Shown here: positions 54,215-56,922 of the stretch, piece by piece
How the letters are laid out: each line of letters starts with the position of its first letter
Position numbering within the stretch: position 1 is the first letter of the stretch
Notes under the pieces: model-generated
Databases searched by the model: none
The model's input: the letters and a program-made list of their open reading frames with translations, nothing else
What the model was told of the DNA's origin: nothing
Translations under genes and position numbers: made by a program
Assembly (NCBI RefSeq): GCF_003987355.1
Contig: NZ_PIPR01000001.1
Location: 806,001 to 870,000 of the forward strand
DNA from: Pseudidiomarina aestuarii
Lineage (GTDB): Bacteria > Pseudomonadota > Gammaproteobacteria > Enterobacterales > Alteromonadaceae
Length of the DNA stretch: 64,000 nt
Reading direction: 5' to 3'

Positions 54215-54631
54215 TCAACCGACCTGCTGGGAGGACGACGAAAGAGTTTGAGACTGCAGCCGATAGCCTTGGGTAAGATCAGCCAAAATGGTAAGCAGTC
54301 GCTCAGCATCAACCGGCTTAGCAAGACACAAATCTGCGCCTGCTTGTTTCGCTACCGCTTGCACTTCACGAACGTCCTGCGTCGTCAAAAATAATATAGG
54401 GGTATACACATAGCCACCCAACTCACGTAAGTTCTTACATAAAGTTAGGCCATCCATTAATGGCATCTTGTGATCAATCACAACGATATCAAAATGCTGG
54501 TGCTTCGCATGATTTAGACCGTCTAAGCCATCATTGGCTACGGTTACCACAAACTCTGTTTCAGCAAGTATCGCCAATAACATCGCTTGGGTGGCTGGTT
54601 TATCCTCAACCAGCAATAACGACAGTGACAT
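54215..54631 (-). CDS. Single-domain response regulator (CheY-like)
   Basis: 138 residues: one receiver domain, no output domain. Acidic pair Glu9-Asp10, phospho-acceptor Asp53 in VVIDHKMPLMDG, Thr in FLTTQD, and Lys in LAKPVD. The last 20 residues are a Ser/Gln-rich tail. No histidine kinase is in the window. It is co-directional with the upstream bufABC genes and the 41-residue membrane peptide gene and is coupled to apt. Its partner and output are unknown. Confidence 0.9.
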   Translation of the reverse strand: MSLSLLLVEDKPATQAMLLAILAETEFVVTVANDGLDGLNHAKHQHFDIVVIDHKMPLMDGLTLCKNLRELGGYVYTPILFLTTQDVREVQAVAKQAGADLCLAKPVDAERLLTILADLTQGYRLQSQTLSSSSQQVG

Positions 54632-54663: not shown

Positions 54664-54789
54664 TTAAGCAGAAATGATTTTTGCCCAAGCTAAGACAGCT
54701 GGCAATAAAGGTACTGCAACGAACAGGATGACGGCAATCCAGCCAACGGCTGACGTCGATTGATCTTTAAAGTTCTCATCATGAGACAT
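54664..54789 (-). CDS. Small single-pass membrane peptide, 41 residues
   Basis: ATG 54789 to TAA 54664. It opens with a charged polar stretch (MSHDENFKDQSTSAVG), has one hydrophobic helix (WIAVILFVAVPLLPAVLAWA) and ends KIISA. GAGG lies 9-10 nt upstream. It sits in the 208-bp gap between bufC (51 bp) and the response regulator (32 bp), same strand. I do not recognise the family. Coding is supported by the ribosome site, the clean helix and the otherwise empty gap. It could belong to the RiPP operon or pair with the regulator. Confidence 0.62.
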   Translation of the reverse strand: MSHDENFKDQSTSAVGWIAVILFVAVPLLPAVLAWAKIISA

Positions 54790-54839
54790 CTGAAATTACC
54801 TCAACAAATTGACGATCGAACGCCGCGGATCATACTTGA

Positions 54840-55595
54840 TCAGGCCTTCACTAACAACACAGAACGTGCTGCAAAGTCTGTGAGAATTTGTCGTAAGCCC
54901 TGCTCAAGTTGCGCGGTCTCAAGCTGTGGTAACAAGGGCTGTAACCGCAGTAATAACTCTCGATAATTTTGCTCTGGGGCTTGTTGCAGGAGCTCTAATA
55001 AGACCGCTGTTAAGGGCGTCAGTTCCAAAAACTGTACCGGCTCTGCGTCTCCCTGCTCCGAATGTGTTCTATAGACAAGAATGAATTGTGGATGCTCTTG
55101 CCGGACCGGCTGTTCGGATGATGAATCAAGCGCAGTGACGCGATAATGAAATTGATCTAAAAACGCCGCTGGACTCACAACCCAACTCTGATCTTCAAAA
55201 CTGTCCATGTCCGCACGTCGCAATTCAGCAGGAATATGCGCAAACATCGCATCGACATCCATTCGCTCATAACGTGCCAATTCTCGCTCGTATTGATCAA
55301 CCTGAAGACACTCCTGCTCCTCCAAAAAGGCGACAAATTCACGCCCGATCTCGGAAAAAAACGGAGAAGTTGACTGATGGGAAGCCAAGAATGCGTCAAT
55401 CCACGATTGCCAAGTAGCAACAGGAGTTCTCGCCTTAAGTATAGGAAAACCACTATTCAGAAAGCTGGCTACGTTATTTCGAATCAGCCGTCGGTAGACC
55501 GCAAGGCGTCTGCCTTCAATAGCGGCTGGTGCTGGATTATTCTGTGGATCCCGTAAATAGGCCACAAATTGCTTTTGGGTATCAATGAAACTCAT
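54840..55595 (-). CDS. bufC: DUF2063 partner protein of MNIO enzyme (BufC/HvfC-like)
   Basis: 251 residues from ATG 55595; the stop of bufB overlaps it as ATGA. The N-terminal DUF2063 domain shows QKQFVAYLRDP, RRLAVYRRLIRNNV and the SPFF...FVAFLE pattern; the rest is a variable domain. In MNIO RiPP systems this protein forms a complex with the DUF692 enzyme and helps bind the precursor. The symbol is used by analogy to bufferin clusters; hvfC is a synonym. Confidence 0.88.
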   Translation of the reverse strand: MSFIDTQKQFVAYLRDPQNNPAPAAIEGRRLAVYRRLIRNNVASFLNSGFPILKARTPVATWQSWIDAFLASHQSTSPFFSEIGREFVAFLEEQECLQVDQYERELARYERMDVDAMFAHIPAELRRADMDSFEDQSWVVSPAAFLDQFHYRVTALDSSSEQPVRQEHPQFILVYRTHSEQGDAEPVQFLELTPLTAVLLELLQQAPEQNYRELLLRLQPLLPQLETAQLEQGLRQILTDFAARSVLLVKA

Positions 55596-56428
55596 ACGGC
55601 GCAATGCTTAGTTTTTGCTTCTTTCTCAATCGCATCCTGAATCCTTTCGATAGCATTGGCTTCACCGAGCAATTGCGGCAGCGGAGGAATATCGAAGTCA
55701 CGCTCCAGTAATGTCGGGAATATACCGTGTTGTTGGTAGGCAAACCTGAGTAAGTCAAAAACTTCAGCACGGATATCTGCGCCATGCGTATCCACTAATA
55801 AGTCGGGAGCCTCTTCGGTATGCCCAGCAATGTGACCATAAACAATTCGCTCACTCGGCAACCCGGCGATAAAATCGTATGGGTCATAGCCATGATTTAC
55901 ACTGTTCACGAATACGTTATTCACGTCTAACAACAATCGGCAGTCTGCTTGCTCAAGTACTGAGCGAATAAACTTAAGTTCCGATATTTCCTGCCCAGGC
56001 GCTGCATAATACGAGACATTTTCAAGGACCAATGGCCGTTCGATGATGTCCTGCACGCGCCGGATGCGCTGTGCCACATAATCGGCCGCTTCATCAGTAA
56101 ATGGGATTGGTAACAAATCGTAGAGGTGACCGTGCCCTGAGCAATAGCTCAAGTGCTCCGAGTACAGGGCAATATCGAAGCGATCTAGAAAATTTTTGAC
56201 CGCAACAACCAACTGCTCATCCAACGGATCAAAACTACCGATGGATAGCGACAAACCGTGCGTGGTTAGCGAATAGCGTTCCCGTATGGCATCGAGTTGT
56301 CGATACGCATCATTACCTCTTGAGAGCCAATTTTCGGGAGCAATTTCCCAAAAACCTACGGCGGGAGTTTCAGCCTCAACTCGCGACAGAAACTCCCTTC
56401 GTAAGCCTATTCCTACGCTGCGCCGCAT
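55592..56428 (-). CDS. bufB: DUF692 multinuclear non-heme iron oxidative enzyme (MNIO; BufB/HvfB-like)
   Basis: 278 residues, TIM-barrel DUF692 family. Starts VGIGLRREFL and FWEIAPENW. Metal-binding blocks are seen as TTHGLSLSIG, YSEHLSY, LENVSYY, LLLDVNNVFVN, YGHIAGH, DTHGADI and LLERD. Family members (MbnB, TglH, bufferin and HvfB enzymes) oxidise Cys or Asp of ribosomal peptides using a di- or tri-iron centre. The ATG lies inside the end of bufA (16-nt overlap), so precursor and enzyme are translationally coupled. Substrate assignment to BufA follows from this context. Confidence 0.92.
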   Translation of the reverse strand: MRRSVGIGLRREFLSRVEAETPAVGFWEIAPENWLSRGNDAYRQLDAIRERYSLTTHGLSLSIGSFDPLDEQLVVAVKNFLDRFDIALYSEHLSYCSGHGHLYDLLPIPFTDEAADYVAQRIRRVQDIIERPLVLENVSYYAAPGQEISELKFIRSVLEQADCRLLLDVNNVFVNSVNHGYDPYDFIAGLPSERIVYGHIAGHTEEAPDLLVDTHGADIRAEVFDLLRFAYQQHGIFPTLLERDFDIPPLPQLLGEANAIERIQDAIEKEAKTKHCAV

Positions 56429-56817
56429 TTACCCTCGCCGCATTTGCCTTCACCACACTTCCCTTCTTTGGCTTTGTCTTTCATTTTATCTTTGTGCTCG
56501 GCACCGCATTTGCCTTCGCCGCATTTACCTTCGCCACACTTCCCTTCTTTGGCTTTGTCCTTCATTTTATCTTTGTGCTCGGCACCGCATTTGCCTTCGC
56601 CACACTTACCTTCGCCACACTTCCCTTCTTTGGCTTTTTCTTTCATCTTTTCCTTATGTTCAGCACCACATTTTGCTTCTTGTTGCTGAGCCTCTTGCTG
56701 ATAACCCGCGGTCAGTACACTGTAACCGAACGGATTCGCTTCGGCCGGAACTGAGGTTGCAGCTGTTGCTAATAGTGCACCCGCTGCAATGGATAATGAT
56801 TTGTTCATGGCTTTCAT
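56413..56817 (-). CDS. bufA: EGKCG-repeat RiPP precursor (bufferin/HvfA-like)
   Basis: 134 residues. Signal peptide (MKAMNKSLSIAAGALLATAA, likely cut after AEA at residue 27), a short linker, then a core with ten cysteines: 50; 67, 72, 77; 94, 99, 104; 121, 126, 131. Nine lie in EGKCG motifs set in three triplets separated by AEHKDKMKDKAK-type spacers. This is the hallmark of the Sec-exported copper-binding MNIO peptides (bufferins/HvfA) whose Cys residues are converted to thiooxazole-type groups. AGGAAA lies 7 nt before the ATG. The family was formerly annotated as low-complexity or DUF2282-like protein. Confidence 0.9.
   Translation of the reverse strand: MKAMNKSLSIAAGALLATAATSVPAEANPFGYSVLTAGYQQEAQQQEAKCGAEHKEKMKEKAKEGKCGEGKCGEGKCGAEHKDKMKDKAKEGKCGEGKCGEGKCGAEHKDKMKDKAKEGKCGEGKCGEGKCGAA
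56428..56670 (-). repeat. Three 81-bp tandem repeats inside bufA
   Basis: Units 56428-56508, 56509-56589 and 56590-56670, each coding 27 residues (EGKCG x3 plus the charged spacer). Units 1 and 2 are nearly identical in DNA; unit 3 is more diverged, most in its spacer. In-frame, so copy number can change without breaking the gene. Confidence 0.93.
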
Positions 56818-56889
56818 GATAATTTCCTTTTTCTGTCCTGCAAAAATAACTTACGCGATTCGCGTTTATTGAGTTTAGTCTACTACAGC

Positions 56890-56922
56890 AGTATAGACGT
56901 TTCTCTTTATTGAGATCTTACA
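56890..56922 (-). promoter_or_regulatory. Candidate promoter of the buf operon
   Basis: On the minus strand TGTAAGA (56922-56916), 16-nt spacer, CGTC (56899-56896), which resembles ECF-sigma promoters. TATACT (56895-56890) next to it could be a sigma-70 -10 without a good -35. About 75-100 bp before bufA. No ECF sigma gene is in the window. Confidence 0.35.

Follow-up and report, generated by a model that had tools for sequence, protein, structure and literature searches.

A probable captophorin operon with a regularly repeated EGKCG precursor in Pseudidiomarina aestuarii

Three overlapping minus-strand genes, hvfABC, occupy positions 56817 to 54840 of the window, the 64,000-nucleotide stretch of Pseudidiomarina aestuarii DNA that we analyzed. 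Together they very probably form an operon of the captophorin class (EGKCG, 'Lys-Cys' group) whose product would be a Sec-exported, 5-thiooxazole-containing peptide that buffers Cu(I). We describe the gene content, protein families, conserved residues and likely boundaries of the operon. The three genes and their two downstream neighbors are as follows.

56413..56817, minus strand: hvfA, RiPP precursor, 134 amino acids; NF050137, 68.9 bits (cut-off 19.5)
55592..56428, minus strand: hvfB, MNIO (formerly DUF692) peptide maturase, 278 amino acids; PF05114, 337.8 bits; NF003818, 402.3 bits (cut-off 360)
54840..55595, minus strand: hvfC, DUF2063/HvfC partner protein; NF050145, 214.5 bits (cut-off 142); PF09836 and PF22106
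54664..54789, minus strand: 41-amino acid single-span membrane peptide, judged to lie outside the RiPP operon; adjoins apt-dnaX
54215..54631, minus strand: stand-alone receiver-domain response regulator, judged to lie outside the RiPP operon; PF00072, 86.2 bits

Coordinates and reading frames of hvfABC were verified. As the initial annotation of this DNA had described, the precursor gene overlaps the MNIO gene, and the MNIO gene overlaps the DUF2063 gene. The first overlap measures 16 nt. The best hvfC start is the ATG at 55595, which overlaps the hvfB stop codon as ATGA; an alternative, longer hvfC ORF begins at TTG, 55604.

Because the HvfA-family motif model and the models for the MNIO and its partner were all exceeded by a wide margin, the operon is not a chance pattern. 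The motif model, NF050137, is the NCBIfam 'HvfA family oxazolone/thioamide-modified RiPP metallophore'. The precursor did not reach NF050188, the full-length HvfA equivalog (37.6 bits versus 95), and we therefore classify it as an HvfA-family member rather than an HvfA orthologue; this shortfall counts against reading the locus as a functional copper-RiPP operon. Of the 'bufferin/HvfA-type' label given initially, the HvfA-type half holds, as an EGKCG precursor accompanies an MNIO and a DUF2063 partner. Strict bufferin (Buf1, DUF2282) identity was ruled out, since HvfB fell below the BufB equivalog NF050167 (269.5 bits versus 310) and the precursor had no DUF2282 match at E ≤ 0.1. Methanobactin identity was likewise ruled out (MbnB equivalog TIGR04159, 35.7 bits versus 325). 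Searches of the genome gave a single MNIO match, to the HvfB of the window, and with the motif model a single precursor, hvfA.

In the PDB, HvfB matched 3BWW, a Histophilus structure (E = 5.9e-69), and HvfC matched 3DEE (E = 6.9e-9). HvfB carries the motifs DVNN at 168 and DTHG at 213. Replacing N175, D242 or H244 of the characterized HvfB abolished activity (PMC13419390), and by our own mapping through the 3BWW alignment the equivalent residues are kept in the window's protein as N170, D213 and H215. A point against the main reading is that the stretch from HIAGH to DTHG is about 23 residues shorter, by our count on the alignment, than in 3BWW.

The claim that the precursor is an exported peptide with nine EGKCG motifs was borne out by exact counts: nine EGKCG, one EAKCG, ten KCG and ten cysteines, behind an N terminus that, judged by eye, is probably a Sec signal peptide. 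The motifs are arranged in three 27-residue units with three EGKCG in each, plus the one EAKCG, giving Cys-motif spacings of 17,5,5,17,5,5,17,5,5. At the DNA level, hvfA contains 3.1 tandem copies of an 81-bp unit, with 90% matches.

The precursor had also been called unusually regular. It is indeed the most regular of 20 in the genus, which fits its 81-bp repeat and an origin by tandem duplication; L037 has two equal units, and several doublet-type precursors from other taxa are equally periodic. The triplets themselves are not unusual, as runs of at least three EGKCG occur in 18 of the 20 Pseudidiomarina precursors (the window's own counted). Elsewhere such runs were found in 5 of 56 loci, some of which are several loci from one genome; the script count was 6 of 58 before we set aside L137 and L145, which share sequence with L045 and L057 and are second records of loci already counted. 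This survey covered 93 loci, 15 of which were dropped because their precursor was not recognized; the three of 23 genus loci without one comprise two cut by contig ends and the locus of genome G020. Triplets of adjacent EGKCG between charged spacers are thus typical of Pseudidiomarina, with doublets common in other taxa. In PMC12452194, the repeats described are of 17 residues with two motifs each.

We considered whether each unit might bring its three neighboring 5-thiooxazoles together in a multi-copper cluster of its own kind, instead of the published beta-helix of 17-residue repeats. This idea is speculative, and we regard it as doubtful. A precedent for clustered repeats may be found in PMC13097082, where the fragment FonA88-104 lost 12 H, which we read as three modified repeats. 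AlphaFold2 modeling of the precursor (8 sequences) gave a mean pLDDT of 44.8 and a pTM of 0.22. If such clusters did form, copper stoichiometry and affinity would differ from those of the doublet type. A precursor this regular would also be a convenient substrate for asking how MNIOs travel along repeats.

The 81-bp repeat, with its 90% matches, and the variation in motif number among species would also be expected if the operon were decayed and slippage alone maintained the repeats. We consider this extremely unlikely, as each of the three frames is open, they overlap, and EGKCG persists in the 20 congener precursors even though the spacers vary.

For the functional operon that we favor, chemistry, export, copper binding and physiological role would follow those of characterized relatives, and the mechanism we propose is modeled on those of oxazolin, fontiphorin and the Microbulbifer mmr product (PMC13419390, PMC13097082 and PMC12538549). 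The Sec signal peptide of HvfA would double as the leader, and full-length HvfA would be recognized in the cytoplasm by the HvfB-HvfC pair. Using a mixed-valent diiron centre, HvfB would carry out a four-electron oxidation of the cysteine in each EGKCG (-4 Da per Cys) to yield 5-thiooxazole, at up to nine and perhaps ten sites per HvfA; the tenth motif, EAKCG, may be left unmodified. Modified HvfA would then be exported through Sec and lose its signal peptide, and the mature product would act as a copper buffer in the envelope, taking up several Cu(I). EGKCG precursors paired with HvfBC-type enzymes are reported to gain 5-thiooxazoles and to bind copper (PMC13097082), and in mmr every cysteine is reported to have lost 4 H (PMC12538549).

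Alternatively, the peptide could be exported unmodified or serve another metal or stress, such as gold, zinc or oxidants. PMC13097082 calls the metal specificity of EGKCG products unsettled, and the precursor of G020 lies upstream of a same-strand Cation_efflux gene. As the maturase and its partner are complete and conserved, and the EGKCG products characterized in the published accounts bind copper, we think this alternative unlikely.

An alignment of 28 hvfA upstream regions and a consensus scan yielded no recognizable copper-responsive promoter, another point against a copper-RiPP operon. The alignment mainly shows the terminator of the preceding gene. A conserved regulatory motif upstream of hvfA was dropped as a candidate because the scan counts were near expectation (promoter-like sites, 5 versus 4.7 expected; terminator-like sites, 3 versus 3.4 expected).

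Of 59 genomes, own genome counted, 43 have an HvfB relative, and hvfB is present in 22 of 25 congeners (own genome left out). Its absence from three of the 25 implies that the system is dispensable and also weighs against the main reading.

The usual DoxX gene had been reported as lacking. It is indeed absent from the locus, and a genome search at E ≤ 1 gave a single PF07681 match, which lies on another contig (C5), but this absence is not unusual. A DoxX-like gene is a frequent though not required member of HvfABC-type operons. With our own HMM, built from 11 DoxX proteins, we detected DoxX in none of the order's 31 HvfB loci examined (L032-L062; 22 congeners and nine others), on fetched stretches that extend past hvfB by as much as 5 kb on its downstream side, a few of them cut by contig ends. 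A Pfam DoxX search also found none inside these stretches; the nearest on a shared contig was about 18 kb away, in G029. In a second set of 80 named HvfB loci (L116-L195), several of which end at contig ends and some of which, including L116-L134 and L137, repeat loci of the first set, DoxX was present in ten, at a distance of about 4 kb in L154. By our own count from two tables, a DoxX match lay within 2 kb at 11 of 18 places in the order with a lower-identity MNIO (40% or less), for example in G032, G045, G054 and G058. As none lies in the fetched stretches of the 31 EGKCG-type loci, DoxX follows the type of MNIO, and its absence is the rule for EGKCG-type HvfB loci sampled in this order. 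According to PMC12452194, most EGKCG clusters hold core genes 'in various combinations'.

The initial annotation further proposed that the 41-residue peptide and the response regulator follow instead of DoxX. Both genes are there, and the five genes from hvfA to the regulator are collinear with short gaps. The genome search suggested with this proposal, for the operon followed by the peptide, succeeded in that the peptide comes after hvfC in every congener hvf locus (22 of 22), and we first took it for a DoxX replacement or hvf-linked partner. That impression was overturned by order-wide counts and by natural empty sites. Among 394 genomes of the order, the peptide was detected at E ≤ 1e-3 in 124 and HvfB above the cut-off in 103 (own genome counted): 52 have both, always less than 4 kb apart, 72 only the peptide, 51 only HvfB and 219 neither. 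The association exceeds chance (odds ratio 3.1, p 3.7e-6), although the ratio counts related genomes as independent and is inflated by shared ancestry. HvfB above the cut-off is thus missing from 72 of 124 peptide genomes, and the peptide from 51 of 103 HvfB genomes. Among the peptide loci, the best 30 had apt within 1.5 kb more often than hvfC (29 versus 22). We also inspected 15 further hand-picked peptide loci, mostly chosen for having no HvfB (20 fetched stretches minus five that repeat places among the best 30). Nine had apt or dnaX within 3 kb and one had hvfC; in the remaining six we saw no apt, dnaX or hvfC neighbor, and in some of them the peptide match itself is weak.

The empty sites are those of congeners G009, G021 and G025, which have neither HvfB nor, by the motif model, a precursor, and retain the peptide. 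The gene order is tonB-TPR-peptide-regulator-apt-dnaX in G009 and G021 and tonB-TPR-peptide-regulator-dnaX in G025, with no apt match in its fetched stretch; no hvfC match was present in the fetched stretches of the three. The regulator adjoins the small peptide in all three. At these empty sites, the unit gained or lost is hvfABC. Since hvfBC also stands beside apt-dnaX in several other families, the empty sites suggest loss of hvfABC rather than gain.

We considered a longer operon in which hvfABC, the peptide (in place of DoxX) and the regulator act jointly in copper handling or sensing. Such an arrangement would account for the collinearity, the 22 of 22 loci and the co-occurrence above chance. 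It is nevertheless quite unlikely, given the three of three empty sites, the many genomes with one component and not the other, and the closer attachment of the peptide to apt. With both genes kept in all three congeners without HvfB, and the peptide in 72 genomes of the order without it, they are unlikely DoxX stand-ins and are probably neighbors rather than operon members. The empty sites delimit the cassette as hvfABC and guard against counting the adjacent peptide and regulator as parts of it. For a marine genus, the locus also shows a conserved position of what is very probably an EGKCG copper-RiPP cassette.

The Pseudidiomarina locus is another member of the widespread EGKCG copper-RiPP kind, published only recently, which includes oxazolin, fontiphorin and Microbulbifer mmr. 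In nontypeable Haemophilus influenzae, the operon for oxazolin, hvfABC(X), is described as encoding, like the window's operon, a precursor with a Sec leader and repeated EGKCG, the MNIO HvfB and its partner HvfC. Its precursor has three AEGKCGEGKCG motifs (6 Cys), compared with three 27-residue triplet units (9 + 1 Cys) here, and it includes a DoxX-like hvfX that the window's operon does not have; the window's HvfB is also shorter by those roughly 23 residues, in one loop, than 3BWW, a close HvfB relative. Fontiphorin (fonABC of Fontimonas thermophila) and its captophorin class share EGKCG repeats (seven sites) and an MNIO-PME1 pair, as well as 5-thiooxazole and copper binding, both of which we would expect by analogy for the window; as reported, fontiphorin differs in its host and in the number and spacing of its repeats. 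Microbulbifer mmrABC is similar in belonging to marine gammaproteobacteria and in having EGKCG cassettes. The cluster is drawn as ABC, its authors judging the flanking ORFs unlikely to take part, and in the strain studied there are two cysteines per cassette and five to eight overall, unlike the window's triplets. Bufferins (Buf1 DUF2282, Buf2) share the MNIO and DUF2063 partner, an exported Cys precursor and copper buffering, the last presumed by analogy here. They differ in a precursor unrelated by model, in the BufB model that HvfB does not reach, and in having DoxX as a core gene, as described, where the window has none.

The original observation is sound, and the operon is ordinary for its class: the absence of DoxX, the peptide and regulator, and the triplets are not unusual. 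Among the literature matches listed, judged by title and the start of the abstract, we found no paper on this locus. The survey in PMC12452194 collected about 2,000 such precursors, and the window's may well be in its tables.

In G020 (L046, L207), hvfBC keep their usual place, and no precursor separates them from the TPR gene. A precursor with nine KCG is encoded on the same contig at a distance of about 1.77 Mb, where a Cation_efflux gene (PF01545, 130.7 bits; ZT_dimer PF16916) follows it immediately downstream on the same strand. Maturase and substrate have separated in this genome, and the precursor may be co-transcribed with the metal exporter gene. The Cation_efflux family is often linked to zinc.

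The window's copy of the 41-residue peptide matched nothing above cut-off in Pfam or NCBIfam models; weak matches to PsbM and a multidrug exporter, all below cut-off, were discarded. Relatives occur in other families as well. Those collected (L066-L095, L209, L210 and L212) are 38-44 amino acids long in the 19 aligned, most with an LPA-x-L-x-W-like core, and where neighbors were checked the gene is mostly beside apt-dnaX. This small single-span membrane peptide may represent an undescribed small-protein family.
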